From assembly GCA_030549905.1 (NCBI GenBank), contig JAUQQK010000016.1:1-36891 (forward strand): a stretch of 36,891 nt of DNA, in the 5' to 3' direction. The notes below the pieces were generated by a model. That model did not search any database. It had not been told where the DNA came from and saw only the letters and a program-made list of their open reading frames with translations. A program made the translations under genes and the position numbers. The DNA is from Aquificota bacterium. GTDB taxonomy: Bacteria; Aquificota; Aquificia; Aquificales; Aquificaceae. Positions 27,808-35,459 of this stretch are shown piece by piece (position 1 is the stretch's first letter; each line of letters starts with the position of its first letter).

Positions 27808-29085
27808 ATGCGTCGCGCGGTAAGTATTATACCATTACTTTGGCTTAGTTTTTCCTTTGCCCAAGAAGGACAGCAAAAGTTAGACACGGGTGATACTGCA
27901 TGGCTCTTAGTATCTACCGCTCTTGTGATGCTTATGAGCCTTCCCGGGCTTGCCATTTTTTACGGAGGCATGGCAAAGGAAAAGGACACTTTAAACACGT
28001 TAGCTATGGTTTTTTCCGCCTATGCTGTGGTTTCCATAGTCTGGGTCCTGTATGGTTATAGCCTTGCCTTTGGTGCGGATATAGCTGGCATAATAGGAAG
28101 TCCATCTAAGTTTTTTCTCAAGGGTATTGGTATAAACAGCCTGCAAGGAACGGTGCCAGAGTTTGTTTTTGTTGCCTTCCAGCTTACCTTTGCAGCAATC
28201 ACCGTAGCCCTTATAAGCGGTGCCCTGATTGAAAGGCTTAAGTTTTCCGCATGGGTGCTTTTTAGCCTTCTGTGGGTCAGTCTGGTTTATGTGCCTGTTG
28301 CCCACTGGGTATGGGGTGGAGGTTTTCTTGCCAAACTTGGAGCTTTAGACTTTGCTGGTGGAACCGTTGTGCATATAAATGCAGGCGTAGCAGGGCTTGT
28401 TGGAGCTTTGCTCCTTGGAAAACGCAAGGAGCCCTTGCTTATACCCAATAATCTGCCCATGGTGGTGATAGGCACGGGGCTTTTATGGTTTGGGTGGTTT
28501 GGCTTCAACGCAGGTTCTGCAGTAGCTTCCAATGGTCTTGCTGCTGCAGCCTTTCTGAATACCAACACGGCGACTGCAATGGCAGCTCTTTCCTGGATGC
28601 TTGTAGAGTGGTTTCACAGGAAAAAGCCCACAGTACTTGGGCTTGCTTCCGGTGCGGTCACAGGGCTTGTAGCCATAACACCCGCGGCTGGCTTTGTCAA
28701 TATAGTGGGTGCTTTGATAATAGGTTCTCTATCTGGTGTGGTTTGCTACTTTATGGTGGCTGAGGTGAAAGAAAGGCTTGGGTATGATGATGCCCTTGAT
28801 GTGTTTGGCATACACGGTGTTGCCGGCATACTGGGAGCAATTATGACAGGCATATTCGCAGACCCATCTATAAATTCTGCCGGTGCAGGGCTCCTTTATG
28901 GAAACATAAAACAGCTTTTGGTTCAGTTGGTGGCAGTGGCTATCACCATAGTATACGATGCCATAGCTACCTTTATTCTCTTCCTTGTTATCAAAGCTAC
29001 AGTGGGCTTGAAGGTAAGCGAAGAAGAAGAAACTGCAGGTCTTGACAAGTCCCAGCACGGAGAAAGTGCTTACAACATTTCTTAA
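27808..29085 (+). CDS. amt: Ammonium transporter
   Basis: A 425-residue Amt/MEP/Rh channel for ammonium uptake, with a cleavable signal peptide ([19 protein letters not shown]) and eleven expected helices. Family residues visible: [27 protein letters not shown], the twin-His pore residues in [10 protein letters not shown] and [23 protein letters not shown], and [13 protein letters not shown]. The C-terminal tail is acidic ([16 protein letters not shown]). Placement right after glnB and glnA is the classic arrangement for PII-controlled uptake. Strong Shine-Dalgarno AAAGGAGGAAAG. Confidence 0.97.
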
Positions 29086-29101
29086 CAAGGGAGGCGTTGC
29101 C

Positions 29102-30151
29102 ATGAAAAAACTTTTAACACTGAGCTTAACCTTGATAGGCGTTTCTCAGGCCCTTGAGCTAAGGGCTGAGCCTTTAGGAAAGTTAAACCTGAGCGGTGCT
29201 TTAACGGGCTATGTTATATACAGCGACAACAAGACAGATAATAAAAAGACAAGGTATGATATTGGCTCCGCCATCATAAACCTTTCAAAGCCTGCGGAAC
29301 CTCTTGGCTTTACCTTATATGCTGGTGCATACGCTATGCCCGTAATAGGTGCTCCTCTTTTAAAAACCTCAAATTACACAGACCTCTTTAGTCCTCTGCC
29401 CATTGCTTATTTGGAGCTGGCTCCTACCAAAGGCTTTTCTCTGCAGGCTGGAAAACTTCCCACTTTGATAGGTTATGAAAGTGCCTTTACATACCTTAAC
29501 AACTACCTGCAGAGAGGGCTCATATGGAACATGCAACCAGTGGTGCATAATGGAGTAAGGGTCATATATACCGCAGACCTATTTACTGTAAAGGCTGGCA
29601 TAAACGATGGCTTTTATACCCTGAGCACAAAAAACCCCAAACCTGCCCTTGAGGCAAGTATAACTTTAACACCTGCAAAAGAGGCTTCCGTGTCTCTAAA
29701 TATGCTTGTTCCAGACAAGGATGCAAAACCGAACGATACCGCAAACCCATCTAACAGAAGAGAATTTAACATAGTGTCAAGCTATACTATAGACAGGCTT
29801 TCTCTTGGATTTGACCTTATGTATGTATATGCTCCCAAAAGCTCAACAGCTGGCGTGCTTCAAGAAGCTAAGGCAAGTGGTGGATGTATTCATCTCTCCT
29901 ATGACCTCAAACCTTTTAAGCTTTCTGGAAGGCTTGAGTATGTAAAAGACAATTCAGACGCAGGTGGTATAGACCTTGTAGGACTCGGAAACGGCAATAA
30001 AGGCTGGAGTATTACTTTCACACCAGCCTATACGAAAGGCTCCCTCTTTGCAAGAACTGAGTTTTCCTATGTGAAAGCGGACAGGAGCTTTACCATTAAT
30101 GGCAAGAAGGAACAAACGAGGGTTGGTATAGAGGTGGGGTTTTTGTTTTGA
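29102..30151 (+). CDS. Predicted outer-membrane beta-barrel porin (OmpL/BBP2-like)
   Basis: A 349-residue exported protein: signal peptide MKKLLTLSLTLIGVSQA, then alternating hydrophobic/polar strands throughout and a C-terminal GIEVGFLF ending in Phe, typical of outer-membrane barrels. The segment LQAGKLPTLIGYESAFTYLNNYLQRGLIWNMQPVVHNGVR resembles the putative beta-barrel porin-2 (OmpL-like) family. The longer frame from 29042 lies inside amt and is rejected, because GGGAGG precedes ATG 29102. It is 16 bases after the amt stop, so a role in passage of ammonium or small nitrogen compounds across the outer membrane is a reasonable inference. Confidence 0.8.
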   Translation: MKKLLTLSLTLIGVSQALELRAEPLGKLNLSGALTGYVIYSDNKTDNKKTRYDIGSAIINLSKPAEPLGFTLYAGAYAMPVIGAPLLKTSNYTDLFSPLPIAYLELAPTKGFSLQAGKLPTLIGYESAFTYLNNYLQRGLIWNMQPVVHNGVRVIYTADLFTVKAGINDGFYTLSTKNPKPALEASITLTPAKEASVSLNMLVPDKDAKPNDTANPSNRREFNIVSSYTIDRLSLGFDLMYVYAPKSSTAGVLQEAKASGGCIHLSYDLKPFKLSGRLEYVKDNSDAGGIDLVGLGNGNKGWSITFTPAYTKGSLFARTEFSYVKADRSFTINGKKEQTRVGIEVGFLF

Positions 30152-30161
30152 GTTAGAGAGC

Positions 30162-30190
30162 TTGACTTTATGATTTATATCATATATCAT
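30162..30190 (+). promoter_or_regulatory. Promoter of the caspase/DUF4384 operon with an overlapping dyad
   Basis: TTGACT (30162-30167), 17 bp, TATCAT (30185-30190). A near-palindrome with arms TGAT (30171-30174) and ATCA (30186-30189) and a palindromic AT-rich centre covers the spacer and -10, as an operator would. A second -10-like TAAAAT lies at 30206-30211. Confidence 0.6.
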
Positions 30191-30241
30191 GCTACTGCTT
30201 TGTGATAAAATAATACCAAAACCTAAGGGGGGGTTTTTATC

Positions 30242-31012
30242 ATGAAAAAAGTAACCTCTTTCCTGCTGTTTATCTCCGCAATATCTTTTGCAGAGCCGAA
30301 TGCCAGAAGTTTATTTATGAGTACTGCGGGCAGTATGGTGGAAGTAAAAGATGAAAAACCTCAAAAGAAACAGACTGTAAGCACGACCTCAAACAAGAAG
30401 GCTAAGAAAGAAGAAGTGCAGGACGTATATATGGGTATGCAGGTAGCGGTATATTTAAAGGGGAAAAATAACCTAGTGCCTGTTAATCACAGAAAGTATG
30501 TTTTCAGAACCGGACAGGAGTTTAAAGTGCAGGTTATGTATAACACACCGGGTGTTGTGGAATTTTACAACATAAACTCACGCGGACAAAAAAACTATTT
30601 AGGCAGGTGGCTTGTGGAAAAGCCTTTTGAAGGAACCTTGCTTCCAAAGGATGCATTTTTCAAGTTTGAGGGTGAAAAAGGAAAGGAAAAACTCCTCATA
30701 CTCTTCTATCCATGCCAGCCTCATGATAAGAAGGTAGTGGAGGAGATAAGGGTAGCAAGCAGAGACATAGCGGTTGTAAAGGATGAAAGTTATAAGGAAG
30801 TTTCTCTGAGGGATAACATAAATCTACCCATGTGTAACTTTGAAGATATGGAGAAAAGAAGAGACAAGGATAATGTAGTGACTCAAGCAGCCTCAAGAAA
30901 TATAGTGGTTATGGAAGAGCGTACTACGAGGAGGGTTTATTATCTTGTTAATTCTAAAGACTACAAACAAGGAGAACCTATTGTGGCTGTGCTTGAGTTA
31001 GAGCATAGATAA
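30242..31012 (+). CDS. Exported DUF4384-domain protein
   Basis: A 256-residue protein with signal peptide MKKVTSFLLFISAISFA, a basic linker, and a DUF4384-like domain (~65-165): VAVYLKGKNNLVPVNHRKYVFRTGQEFKVQVMYNTPGVVEFYNINSRGQ, followed by a FEGEKGKEKLLILFYP strand. After this come two related segments, VASRDIAVVKDESYKEV and AASRNIVVMEERTTRRV, suggesting an internal duplication. DUF4384 is frequently fused to or encoded beside caspase-fold peptidases, and here such a gene lies two genes downstream. Strong G-rich Shine-Dalgarno. First gene of a five-gene unit. Confidence 0.8.
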   Translation: MKKVTSFLLFISAISFAEPNARSLFMSTAGSMVEVKDEKPQKKQTVSTTSNKKAKKEEVQDVYMGMQVAVYLKGKNNLVPVNHRKYVFRTGQEFKVQVMYNTPGVVEFYNINSRGQKNYLGRWLVEKPFEGTLLPKDAFFKFEGEKGKEKLLILFYPCQPHDKKVVEEIRVASRDIAVVKDESYKEVSLRDNINLPMCNFEDMEKRRDKDNVVTQAASRNIVVMEERTTRRVYYLVNSKDYKQGEPIVAVLELEHR

Positions 31013-31023
31013 GGGATTACGCT

Positions 31024-31824
31024 ATGAAGAGGGGGTTAAGCTTAGCTCTTTCTATATGCCTTCTTAATGCTACAGCTTTTAGCGTGGATTTTGGCAATAT
31101 AATAAAACAGCTTCCTCTATATAAGGAAATGCAAAATGTACAAGTTCCACAAGTGAATGATATAAAAAAACAGCTGCCCATACCTAAGGAAATACCAAAG
31201 TCGCAGGTTCAACAACAAAAGCAGGATGCACAATCAGCTTCAATATCTTGCGAAGAGATGCTGGCAAAGTCGCCTAAGAAACCTGTAATTGAAGAAACTG
31301 CAAAAAATGTTCTGATTGGGGGAGCTGGAGGTGCTGTAGTGGGTGCGCTTGTAAGCAAAGATAAAGCAAAAGGTGCCATACTGGGTGCAGTTAGCGGAGC
31401 TGCCGCTGGAATAGCATACTCTTATCTAACAACTCAAGATACACAGCGTGAAAGTTTAGAATCTGCTGCTAAGAGGTTAGGATATAGGTATGATAAGCCT
31501 GAATTGTTCTTAGAATTTAGAGCAAAGAACAAAAGCAACTTTAAAAGAGGAGACTATTTAGTTGGGGCTTTGAGAATAACTTTGCTAACTCCTCAAAAGG
31601 ATAGGGACCAACAGCACCAAGTAACGATATCTGCTTATCTTGTTAAGGACGGTGAGAGAATACCTCTTGGTGTAGAAAACTATTATTTCAACGCTGGCAC
31701 AACACCCGTTTTATATGCCTTTCCTATATGTGATGCAGTAAAACCTGGTGCTTATAAGATTGCTTTTGAGGTTATAGGACTTGGTACTGAGAGAGAGGTA
31801 GTATATGAGTTCAGGGTTTTCTAA
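31024..31824 (+). CDS. Exported glycine-zipper protein with C-terminal beta domain
   Basis: A 266-residue protein: signal peptide (MKRGLSLALSICLLNATAFS), a Gln/Pro-rich region with two similar motifs (IKQLPLYKEM and IKKQLPIPKEI), a glycine-zipper hairpin (~97-130, GGAGGAVVGALVSKDKAKG then AILGAVSGAAAGIAYSYL) and a ~110-residue C-terminal region with alternating beta pattern (LFLEFRAKNK, YLVGALRITLL, VTISAYLVKDG, YKIAFEVIG). Glycine zippers insert in or oligomerise at membranes. I know no named family for the whole protein. It overlaps the caspase gene by 20 bases, which indicates tight coupling. Confidence 0.75.
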   Translation: MKRGLSLALSICLLNATAFSVDFGNIIKQLPLYKEMQNVQVPQVNDIKKQLPIPKEIPKSQVQQQKQDAQSASISCEEMLAKSPKKPVIEETAKNVLIGGAGGAVVGALVSKDKAKGAILGAVSGAAAGIAYSYLTTQDTQRESLESAAKRLGYRYDKPELFLEFRAKNKSNFKRGDYLVGALRITLLTPQKDRDQQHQVTISAYLVKDGERIPLGVENYYFNAGTTPVLYAFPICDAVKPGAYKIAFEVIGLGTEREVVYEFRVF

Positions 31825-33223
31825 AATATTAACTGGTGTTTTAATACCTGTGTTCTTATTTGCTCAGGAATTTCTAGAAGAAAAACAACAGGAAGATGAT
31901 TTGGAAAAAATTAAAGCCTTTATAGAGAAAAATTACAGAACTATTAAGCCACAAATACAGATAGGGTCAAACGGAAAAATAAGGCTAACAGGCAAGTATA
32001 AAACCTATGATGAATTTCTTTACTCCCTCATGGCATTACAGATAGCTGCCATACAGACAGGTGTAGATTTAAGGAAGATAGACCTCAGTTACGATTCTGT
32101 AGAAACCATGATAATCAACAATACGCCTGAGCTTTGTTTTCCATATGCGGTAAAGGGAAATCCATGTCCTTATGGAAGAATAAGTTTTAGCAAGCCATAT
32201 GTAGAAAAGGAAGTTAAAAGAAAGGAAAAGGGCAGGTACGCTCTTGTTCTCGGTGTTTCCAAGTTCAAAAGTCAGAATATACCACCTGTAGATGGTGCAG
32301 ATAACGATGCAAGAGCTTTCGCTAAATATCTTGAGGATAGAGGATATAAAGTAAAGCTTCTTATAGATGAAAAGGCTTCTTTAAGCGAGGTGGAAAAGGC
32401 TTTAAAGGAAATATACTCTGAAATACAGGATGGCGATGAGCTTGTGTTTTTTGCTGCAAGTCACGGAGCACCTGTTGATGAAAAGGGTGAGGTAGGTATA
32501 GTCTTATACGATAGTCAGGCAATAGGAAGAAATTGCAAAGTGGATATCAGAGAGCCTGTTGTGTATGAGGATACCGCTTTGAAAATGTGCGCGCTTGTCA
32601 AAAATGCCTTTTCTGTAAAAAACCATCTTATAGACTACTTTGCGGACAAAAAGATAAATCTTGTAGTTATAACAGATGCCTGCTACTCGGGAGACCTTTT
32701 AAGAAGCTACCTGAAGGACCTTAAAAATCCTGTTGAGGTGGCTACTACGGAAGAGTATGAAAGAAGGTTGCGTGAAGCTCCTAACATAAGCATTATGGCT
32801 ACAGCTTCAAGTGGAAACAGGCGTTCATGGGGAGGAGTGGTTGATGGAGATTTCAAAAACAGGTTAATCTCTGTTGGAACTCCAAGGTATATAGCTTCAC
32901 AACCTGCGCAAGGACAGAAAAACGCACATGGTGTATTTACCGCTTTTCTTATAACCGCTTTACCACAAAGTGGGGATTCGCTTGCAAAGGCTTTTGAAAA
33001 AATCAAGGACGATGTTAATGATGTTTCGCGTCAGATGTGCTTGACTGCAAGAGGTGTAGAGGGAAGAGACATAGTCTTGTCTGGTGCTGAAAAAAGAATT
33101 GTAGGATGCCCGCCTGATGGACAGCAACCTCAGCTTTTTAGGATAAGAGCGGAAGATTATGTGTTTGCAAAAGCTGAGCAGAAAGCCGACAAGCCTGTGG
33201 ATAGGTATGATAAAATGGATTAG
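31805..33223 (+). CDS. Exported caspase-fold (C14/metacaspase-like) peptidase
   Basis: A 472-residue protein with an N-terminal signal peptide or anchor (LTGVLIPVFLFAQ), a ~120-residue N-terminal region of unknown type, and a caspase-like p20 domain from ~145: RYALVLGVSKFKSQNIPPVDGADNDARAFAKYLEDRGYKV, catalytic H220 in VFFAASHGAP and catalytic C293 in LVVITDACYSGDLL. Both dyad residues are present, so activity is likely. A ~70-residue insertion separates the strands. The end (ITALPQSGDSLAKAFEKIKDDV) resembles the p10-like C-terminal part. Orthocaspases of this type cut after basic residues in general. Export to the periplasm is inferred from the signal peptide. Confidence 0.88.
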   Translation: MSSGFSKILTGVLIPVFLFAQEFLEEKQQEDDLEKIKAFIEKNYRTIKPQIQIGSNGKIRLTGKYKTYDEFLYSLMALQIAAIQTGVDLRKIDLSYDSVETMIINNTPELCFPYAVKGNPCPYGRISFSKPYVEKEVKRKEKGRYALVLGVSKFKSQNIPPVDGADNDARAFAKYLEDRGYKVKLLIDEKASLSEVEKALKEIYSEIQDGDELVFFAASHGAPVDEKGEVGIVLYDSQAIGRNCKVDIREPVVYEDTALKMCALVKNAFSVKNHLIDYFADKKINLVVITDACYSGDLLRSYLKDLKNPVEVATTEEYERRLREAPNISIMATASSGNRRSWGGVVDGDFKNRLISVGTPRYIASQPAQGQKNAHGVFTAFLITALPQSGDSLAKAFEKIKDDVNDVSRQMCLTARGVEGRDIVLSGAEKRIVGCPPDGQQPQLFRIRAEDYVFAKAEQKADKPVDRYDKMD

Positions 33224-33256
33224 GAAAGTAAGGAAAGTAAGGAGGAGGTAGGTGAG

Positions 33257-34156
33257 ATGGCAGAACAAGCAAAGTGTCCAGAATTCGGAACAAAACGAGA
33301 CCTTGAATTCGGTAAAGAGAGAGCTGATGCTTCTCATATTACTGGACCATATATACAGAAGTTCTGGAGCGGTACAAATGTTTTATATGATAAGGAACGG
33401 GAGCTAATATTAGAAAAGATAAAAGAAACAGTTAATGAATGGCTTAGCTCTAAAAAAGGCAGTAAAATTACAATGGAAGAACTTAAAGATAAATGGAACG
33501 ATTTAAAGAATAAAATAGAGTTTTATACAAGACCAAAGGAAGAACATTTAGAAAACATAAAAGGTAAAGATAAATTTATAAGTGAATTTCTCAATAAAAG
33601 CTTCAACCCACGCATGTTTATGATACTTTTCGCCTTAACAGCAATTTTTGAAATATTAGTTATATTGGTGCAGGCTATAGGATTGAGTCTGTCAGAAGGA
33701 GAAGTAGATTTCACAGTTGTTAGCATAGCTGTAGGGCAAGGTCTTCTGCTCGCATTGGGTGGCTGGGTATTAGGCGAGTTTTTTGGAAGGTGGTTTATTG
33801 ATAAGAGATTGCAGAAAGAGGGAATAGTATCTAATCGTACTGGATTAATTCATTATTTTTATCTGGTAGTAGGCATTAGTATAATACTTTTCATATCTAC
33901 TGTTAGAGCATTGGCTGGAGGAGGAGCCTATGCCTTCATAATCACTCTAATACTTGGTCTTTTGGCAACAGCTTTTAAAGGTGCTTGGAAATACAGTGAA
34001 GAATTGAAGTGTGAAGTAGGAAATTTGAAGGTTTCTTACTTTCATAAATTAGCTTCAGAGGGACACGCAAAGAACATGGATATATACGAAGAAAGGTTTT
34101 TTATTGAACTTAGAGAACACGCAAAAAAATACAATGTCTCCATAGAGGAGGGCTAA
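33257..34156 (+). CDS. Four-helix membrane protein of unknown family
   Basis: A 299-residue protein with no signal peptide. The N-terminal ~115 residues are charged and helical (LILEKIKETVNEWLSSKKG, MEELKDKWNDLKNKI). Four hydrophobic segments follow at about 119-145, 150-177, 197-222 and 223-246, and then a ~50-residue helical tail with conserved-looking charged residues. I recognise no family. It lies 33 bases after the caspase gene and one base before the TPR gene. The preceding gap holds a small tandem repeat (GGAAAGTAA twice) and GGAGGAGG as ribosome-binding site. It is visibly more AT-rich than the housekeeping genes. It may be the inner-membrane element of the caspase unit. Confidence 0.7.
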   Translation: MAEQAKCPEFGTKRDLEFGKERADASHITGPYIQKFWSGTNVLYDKERELILEKIKETVNEWLSSKKGSKITMEELKDKWNDLKNKIEFYTRPKEEHLENIKGKDKFISEFLNKSFNPRMFMILFALTAIFEILVILVQAIGLSLSEGEVDFTVVSIAVGQGLLLALGGWVLGEFFGRWFIDKRLQKEGIVSNRTGLIHYFYLVVGISIILFISTVRALAGGGAYAFIITLILGLLATAFKGAWKYSEELKCEVGNLKVSYFHKLASEGHAKNMDIYEERFFIELREHAKKYNVSIEEG

Positions 34157-34157
34157 T

Positions 34158-35030
34158 ATGAAAAAAGTGTCCTTGCTTCTAACTTGCTTAATGCTTGGTG
34201 TCGGTCTTTCTTTTGCTCAGCAAAACCTCTGCACCATAAAGATAAGCACGGACAAAAAGGGTAGAAGAAGTGTCCTGCTTGCTGGAGCAAACGCAGCACA
34301 GCTTCTCGAAAAATACAAAGAAGAGGCGGAAAAGAAAGGGATTAAGCTGGATTTGAGAAGCTTGGAGGTATATGTGTGGGATGGTAAAAAACTCAATTCT
34401 TACAGCCTTGGCTGGGGTACCATCTTCTCTGGCGAGTCTCCTATGGCTACTTGGAAAAAGAAACTGAGTAATGTAGAAGCAAAGATTAACAATGATGAGC
34501 TTTCCAAAGCGCACAAGCTGGGGTGGGATATTGTATGTATAGGTGAGGGAACTCCAGCAGAGGTAAAAGAAACTAAGGAAACTAAAGAGGTCAAAAAAGG
34601 TGAATGCTCTGATACTGCCAAAAACCACATAAACCTTGGGGTAGGCTTTATTAATAACAAACAAATAGATAATGCCATCAAGGAGTTTGAAGCTGCGATA
34701 AAAGAAAGTCCGTCATGTGCTTTGGCTTACGCTAATCTGGTGTCCGCACACGTTCTTAAGAAGAATTACAATATAGCAGTAGATAATTATCTAAAGGGTG
34801 TAGAAAAAGCTGGAGATGATGGATTTCTACATATCACGGGTGCAATAGCTTATACATACAAGAAGGACTATGACCTTGCACTGCAGGCTCTTGATAAAGC
34901 ATTAGCTAAGGGCTTCAGAGATAAATCTGTTCTGGAAGGTAAAGACCTAAGAAATCTATTTTTAAAGAGAAAAGCAGAGTTCTGTAAGATAATGGATAAG
35001 TATTCAGTGGTTATAAAGGGCTGTATATAG
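34158..35030 (+). CDS. Exported TPR-repeat protein
   Basis: A 290-residue protein with signal peptide MKKVSLLLTCLMLGVGLSFAQ. The N-terminal region (~22-130) has a mixed alpha/beta appearance and ends in an acidic/basic hinge (KETKETKEVKKG). From ~150 to ~270 there are about three TPR units (HINLGVGFINNKQIDNAIKEFEAAIKESPS; AYANLVSAHVLKKNYNIAVDNYLKGVEKA; HITGAIAYTYKKDYDLALQALDKALAKG). Paired Cys residues (C25, C127 region, C149, C174) suggest disulfides. GAGGAGG precedes the ATG. It is the last gene before a terminator hairpin; TPR proteins usually scaffold partners. Confidence 0.82.
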   Translation: MKKVSLLLTCLMLGVGLSFAQQNLCTIKISTDKKGRRSVLLAGANAAQLLEKYKEEAEKKGIKLDLRSLEVYVWDGKKLNSYSLGWGTIFSGESPMATWKKKLSNVEAKINNDELSKAHKLGWDIVCIGEGTPAEVKETKETKEVKKGECSDTAKNHINLGVGFINNKQIDNAIKEFEAAIKESPSCALAYANLVSAHVLKKNYNIAVDNYLKGVEKAGDDGFLHITGAIAYTYKKDYDLALQALDKALAKGFRDKSVLEGKDLRNLFLKRKAEFCKIMDKYSVVIKGCI

Positions 35031-35055
35031 CAAAATTTAACCAATAAACCATCGC

Positions 35056-35100
35056 GGGCATAGCCCATTGGCAGCAGTAGGGCTATGCTCTTATAATTTT
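35056..35100 (+). terminator. Intrinsic terminator of the caspase operon
   Basis: An 11-bp stem pairs 35056-35066 with 35080-35090 (one G-T pair) around a 13-base loop, followed by TTATAATTTT (35091-35100). It lies 26 bases after the TPR gene stop. Confidence 0.75.
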
Positions 35101-35147: not shown

Positions 35148-35459
35148 ATGAAAATGCACATGCTCTTATGCTTGATGTTATTTTATACCTCCTGCAGTGG
35201 TGTGGCTGGCAACTTTGAAAAGGGGCAGGAAAGAAATCGGGAAAGGGTAATTAAAGATGTACTGAGCTGTCAGCCCCTTTTGGAGGAAAAAAGCCTAAGA
35301 CCGCAGGTTTGCGGAAGGTGTGAGCTTATATATAGGGACAACAAACTAATAATTGCACCTGCGGAAGGCTGTCCTGCATATGAAGTTCTAAAATGCACTA
35401 CTAAGGGAGGCGATAGCTTCACAATAAACAACCTCTCCTGCAAGCCCTTATTCAGATAA
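35148..35459 (+). CDS. Small Cys-rich putative lipoprotein
   Basis: A 103-residue protein with a hydrophobic N-terminus ending FYTSC-SG, a plausible though imperfect lipobox with the Cys at residue 16. The mature part has seven further Cys (in SCQPLL, VCGRC, EGCPAY, LKCTT and SCKPLF), suggesting disulfides or metal binding. A helical stretch (QERNRERVIKDVL) precedes short beta-type segments (CELIYRDNKLIIAP). No family recognised. It has its own promoter right after the caspase-operon terminator and precedes the broken arsB by 27 bases. Confidence 0.65.
   Translation: MKMHMLLCLMLFYTSCSGVAGNFEKGQERNRERVIKDVLSCQPLLEEKSLRPQVCGRCELIYRDNKLIIAPAEGCPAYEVLKCTTKGGDSFTINNLSCKPLFR

Follow-up and report, generated by a model that had tools for sequence, protein, structure and literature searches.

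Most discussion of bacterial caspases treats them as cytoplasmic enzymes of death or defence, and caspases usually self-process in the p20/p10 linker. The acidic S1 residues of metacaspases hold Arg or Lys, and DUF4384 is a recurrent, unexplained partner of bacterial caspases. The basic specificity of Arg/Lys-specific enzymes has been described previously (PMC6426788). A further relevant family is FtsZ-like 1 (FtsZl1), for which a role in remodelling membranes was proposed and which was reported in 2010 as absent from Aquificales (Makarova and Koonin 2010, PMC2875224). Here we describe a five-gene operon (g1 to g5) in an Aquificaceae genome, within a window of 36,891 nucleotides (the whole stretch of DNA that was analysed), that encodes a caspase-fold peptidase and a DUF4384 protein as separate, predicted exported products. 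We found no paper describing this gene set in the open-access literature.

A compact operon of five genes

The five open reading frames span positions 30242-35030, all on the + strand, with gaps between successive genes of 11, -20, 33, and 1 nt (Table 1), in agreement with the tightly packed operon described in an earlier note on this DNA. The promoter which that note placed at 30162-30190 was discarded because it is only one among 14 consensus matches, against 15 expected by chance. A better candidate is TGATAAAATA at position 30203, which occurs as a single copy within the window. The same element precedes the downstream gene in three relatives (L093, L095, and L098), so the operon may be driven by a resident promoter. 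The strong terminator proposed for 35056-35100 stands as a real hairpin structure, but the clean T-run that should follow it is absent.

Both flanking genes have features of their own. The upstream BBP2 porin ORF (29042-30151) opens at a TTG inside amtB, and relatives suggest that the true ATG lies near 29102. The product of the downstream gene (35148-35459) is small, rich in cysteine, and lipoprotein-like; it belongs to no known family and is conserved beside the BBP2 porin genus-wide.

Table 1 Features of the operon (positions in the window)
Feature	Position	Strand	Length	Description
TGATAAAATA	30203-30212	+		candidate -10 element of the operon
g1	30242-31012	+	256 aa	predicted exported, divergent DUF4384 protein
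g2	31024-31824	+	266 aa	predicted exported glycine-zipper protein; additional domain at the C-terminus
g3	31805-33223	+	472 aa	predicted exported caspase-fold (C14) peptidase; overlaps g2 by 20 nt
g4	33257-34156	+	299 aa	four-helix membrane protein; no known family
g5	34158-35030	+	290 aa	predicted exported TPR protein; separate domain at the N-terminus
terminator-like hairpin	35056-35090	+		-24 kcal/mol, z -3.39

The products are predicted to reside in the envelope

As in the earlier note, hydropathy and inspection reveal signal-like N-terminal segments in g1, g2, g3, and g5, and four hydrophobic transmembrane segments in g4. The g4 segments follow a soluble N-terminal domain of ~115 residues. 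In three relatives g5 is of the lipoprotein type. In each of four full-length copies from Aquificaceae, mature g3 carries six cysteines in addition to its catalytic residue, and the only two cysteines of g1, Cys158 and Cys198, are both invariant in Aquificaceae; the caspase of the proteobacterial relative OTTO1 (described below) contains only its catalytic cysteine. The extra g3 cysteines and the invariant g1 pair would fit disulfides in a hot, oxidising periplasm and are, besides the signal segments, the best evidence for export. We infer a periplasmic location for the module.

g1 itself has no Pfam match. Its identity as a DUF4384 protein is instead carried by its homologues: the copies from the Aquificota genome G023 (L010) and from OTTO1 (L022) match PF14326 at 2.3e-6, above the cut-off, and at 5.7e-18, and both align with g1 over its full length, signal peptide and final residue included. 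Searching the PDB for folds similar to the g1 model returned weak Ig-like matches only, none at E < 0.001. Among the partner proteins, g2 matches Gly-zipper_YMGG (1.8e-8) and has a C-terminal domain that looks β-rich by inspection, while g5 matches TPR_2 at 9.7e-6, just under the family cut-off. g4 has no Pfam match, and PDB sequence searches with g2 and g4 gave nothing significant.

g3 resembles an Arg/Lys-specific metacaspase

The caspase assignment of g3 and its intact dyad hold up: Pfam matches Peptidase_C14 at 1.5e-16, and His220 and Cys293 are invariant among five homologues. The structural model (mean pLDDT 70) consists of an N-terminal domain followed by a caspase fold, which is nearest to MALT1, GSU0716, and metacaspases in model comparison. 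The N-terminal domain (residues ~45-105) has a predicted α-β-β-α-β topology that is BON-like, and the L010 caspase scores E = 0.011 against the BON family PF04972, which falls under the cut-off. By alignment only, Asp168 occupies the metacaspase NDx position and Asp291 is the Asp of the DxC motif; these are the two acidic metacaspase positions and form an S1-type Asp pair. The best reading of these features is a predicted metacaspase-type Arg/Lys-specific cysteine protease.

The operon is a sporadic insertion

Among 61 relatives, g3 occurs in five genomes, its own included. The g1 family is found in 7 of 136 Aquificota genomes, which belong to five genera of one family, and g2 and g3 lie beside it in all seven carriers. 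All five genes are present in the closed genome G023 (1,559,514 bases), which we take to be Hydrogenobaculum Y04AAS1, with order kept and identities of 27-38%; synteny thus extends beyond one genome. G004, G017, G027, G064, and G081 hold partial copies, as far as contig edges allow. The set appears split in G027, since g5 faces g3 there and g4 begins at the edge of another contig, and G081 has a different, unrelated-looking membrane protein behind g5. The G081 caspase gene (L026, 5579-7025) is divided between two reading frames, and an unknown base lies close by, reflecting decay or an assembly error. In G036 (contig C15, L132), a lone g5 end, perhaps a remnant, lies at a contig edge, next to the gene that also adjoins g5 in G023; g1-g3 were not found in the G036 genome.

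In six congeners the upstream BBP2 porin and the downstream small protein are adjacent, 12-91 bases apart, with the operon absent from that site; one of the six, G004, combines the empty site with a copy of the operon on a different contig. No other 5 kb of the window is as AT-rich as the operon stretch (GC 38.9% versus 45.3% overall). A target-site duplication was not found, as the insertion edges have no 8-mer in common, and phage and plasmid searches did not find the operon. Judged from these sequence comparisons, the operon is a sporadic, portable insertion that is not fixed in the lineage, and horizontal spread of the module is the best explanation.

Related gene sets in Proteobacteria can include a tubulin-like protein

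We scanned 84,980 species genomes using the caspase alignment as query; a contig scan with the single caspase of the window had found nothing. The search identified OTTO1, a Burkholderiales-type proteobacterial contig (L022) that encodes, in this order, a DUF4384 protein, a zipper lipoprotein, a BON-like caspase, a Tubulin_2 protein, and a TPR protein. The zipper and TPR proteins correspond to g2 and g5 by type and position, with weak sequence similarity: the g5 family was not found in the OTTO1 genome by direct search, and g5 gives a weak TPR match to the OTTO1 protein in pairwise comparison only. This DUF4384 type is rare in the phylum, occurring at E < 1e-8 in 2 of 398 proteobacterial genomes, OTTO1 included. 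Partial versions occur in other Burkholderiales: G862 combines a zipper-type lipoprotein, a BON-like caspase, and OmpA, and G642 combines OmpA, DUF4384, Tubulin_2, a zinc-ribbon TPR protein, and a caspase-DUF4384 fusion. Candidate loci in Prevotella and others (L023-L025) contain generic caspases, with the operon absent, and were rejected.

These relatives overturn the view of the operon as an isolated, self-contained system. The related proposal, that a split DUF4384/caspase pair with a membrane partner and a zipper protein is undescribed, is retained in that the proteins are separate and the open-access literature yielded no description, but it must now accommodate the same-order set of OTTO1.

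No match to the tubulin/FtsZ-like family PF13809 was found in the genome carrying the operon, and no vWA or OmpA partner was found among the five operon genes. PF13809 scores above its cut-off in 2 of 136 Aquificota. The Tubulin_2/FtsZ-like 1 proteins on G061:C120 (L128) and G093:C323 (L129), one of which lies beside an apparent vWA protein, come from draft genomes in which contamination is possible.

The caspase and its DUF4384 partner have a matching basic motif

Both proteins contain the motif [R/K]-[D/N/S]-[I/L]. In g1, SRxI occurs at residues 173-176 and 218-221; of the twelve columns that are invariant in the C-terminal part of the protein, six fall in these sites. An ARSLF sequence also directly follows the signal peptide. 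In g3, GRDI occurs at residues 420-423 in a low-confidence, loop-like C-terminal stretch of the model, and the g1 site before Ser218 likewise falls in a loop-like stretch of low confidence. The OTTO1 DUF4384 protein contains TAKELF and ISKDLFVED, and its caspase TSKDLFVEE. In G1033, G1060, and G1087 the partner contains ASRDIAV and VARDIAI and the caspase GARDIGV, while in G867 the partner contains AKSIVL and GKSIRL and the caspase SKSIVL. In the OTTO1, G1033/G1060/G1087, and G867 lineages, the motif of the caspase is found 11-18 residues past the catalytic cysteine, where self-processing usually takes place. The motif lies outside the p20/p10 linker in the Aquificaceae caspase and is missing from the truncated G017 copy.

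The flavour of the motif agrees between partner and caspase in four lineages (R[DNS]I, KDLF, RDI[AG][VI], and KSI[VR]L), such that the basic residue and the Ile or Leu two places on are the same between partners and differ between lineages; taken alone, this match has a permutation p of ~0.08 (2 of 24 arrangements). In its strict form the motif is present in 11 of 13 caspases and 11 of 14 DUF4384 proteins against shuffle means below 1, for a motif that was defined by eye after looking, in counts that include related sequences and against shuffles that are blind to kinship. In a separate caspase set it occurs in 3 of 6 DUF4384 fusions versus 4 of 37 others (p = 0.045), and allowing Ala or Gly at the second position made this contrast no sharper. 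Three other loci (L142, L143, and L144) pair a caspase with a nearby DUF4384 protein that has two membrane helices; both proteins contain the same RDI motif, and the loci appear to represent a cytoplasmic sister system.

A proposed envelope protease module

We tentatively favour, at a little under an even chance, a portable, horizontally spread envelope protease module in which an Arg/Lys metacaspase cuts itself and its DUF4384 partner. Exported g3 would be placed near the membrane through its BON-like domain and would cleave after Arg or Lys, cutting itself at GR↓DI in a flexible C-terminal extension; it would work with g1 and probably cut it at the conserved SR↓xI sites. In the proteobacterial relatives the matching site falls in the p20/p10 linker. 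g2 and g5 would form an envelope scaffold that g4 ties to the inner membrane. Both the cleavage and the complex formation are what we infer here, and our guess is that the module acts conditionally, in a stress or conflict response that damages or remodels the envelope, and not in housekeeping; its sporadic occurrence as an insertion favours such a role. A bolder form of this proposal is a mobile periplasmic “caspase switch” that self-activates at R/K-[D/N/S]-[I/L], releases a DUF4384 effector, and controls envelope integrity, with site and enzyme co-evolving (R/K, I/L) across phyla; this we regard as doubtful.

The motif could instead be structural, a β-strand that docks both proteins into a common partner, with g1 a regulator or inhibitor of g3 rather than its substrate. 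Both g1 copies lie just ahead of short strands and the motif is also present within caspase-DUF4384 fusions, in favour of this idea, yet its position relative to the DUF4384 domain shifts by lineage (preceding it in G1033 and following it in the window), as for a linear motif, and a basic residue is kept although Arg and Lys alternate. We consider a structural role unlikely, and give a similarly low probability to an envelope maturation or remodelling machine in which the protease processes or assembles surface proteins, along the lines proposed for FtsZ-like 1 neighbourhoods with OmpA-type proteins, and g4 has replaced a cytoplasmic tubulin. OTTO1 keeps the gene order with Tubulin_2, G642 brings OmpA, Tubulin_2, DUF4384, zinc-ribbon TPR, and caspase together, and the membrane-remodelling role proposed for FtsZl1 (PMC2875224) points the same way. 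Against such a machine, the operon is sporadic and inserted, so it is dispensable for a normal envelope, and the tubulin gene is absent from this genome.

Glycine zippers are membrane-inserting segments, which would fit a lytic defence device in which the caspase cuts a partner that opens the membrane, with the zipper protein as pore and a gasdermin-like logic in the periplasm. The operon is portable and AT-rich, its insertion site is variable, and g3 matches the caspase model of the PADLOC defence library. That match is weak and generic, however, a phage carrier was not found, and no defence genes were recognised around the operon when the ORF list of the window was inspected by eye. A conserved R/K-x-I/L site was not found in g2, which lowers the pore reading and led us to drop the zipper protein as a candidate substrate of the caspase. 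We judge a lytic device to be quite improbable. Between the alternatives raised earlier, a maturation machine and a death or defence device, the portability and the shared basic motif make us lean towards a conditional protease device.

If correct, the proposed protease module would widen the range of bacterial caspase systems to include the periplasm, and DUF4384 would gain a function as protease substrate or regulator. The operon is a compact thermophilic set in which caspase and DUF4384 are separate, soluble, predicted exported proteins, and is hence suited to biochemistry; the matched motif offers a direct, cheap prediction of caspase targets.

Comparison with known systems

Bacterial gasdermin systems (PMC9079055) likewise place a caspase-like protease beside a membrane-active candidate. 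They are cytoplasmic, whereas the operon is predicted to be periplasmic, g1-g5 have no gasdermin homologue by Pfam, NCBIfam, or PADLOC match, and a zipper cut is unsupported. Orthocaspases, metacaspases, and the MALT1 paracaspase have the fold, the His-Cys dyad, and the acidic S1 residues in common with g3, which differs in its predicted export, BON-like domain, and extra cysteines. The bacterial caspase-DUF4384 fusions are exported, combine the same two domains, and in several cases contain an R/K-x-I/L motif in the linker; here the domains form two separate exported proteins with three partners. The FtsZ-like 1 (Tubulin_2) neighbourhoods of PMC2875224 are likewise accessory, envelope-associated operons, with a link to OmpA-type proteins in relatives such as G642. 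The operon, in contrast, contains no tubulin, vWA, GTPase, or OmpA protein, and caspases are unnamed in the available part of that text. The OTTO1 locus has the same gene order, full-length DUF4384 homology, a BON-like caspase, and a terminal TPR protein. It differs in having a 994-aa tubulin-like protein in place of g4, a zinc-ribbon transmembrane TPR protein instead of the exported one, and none of the added disulfide cysteines. Given the same-order set with Tubulin_2 in OTTO1 and the lack of such a gene here, we read the operon as a variant, without the tubulin, of a wider caspase/DUF4384/FtsZ-like neighbourhood, and place it outside the FtsZ-like 1 system itself.
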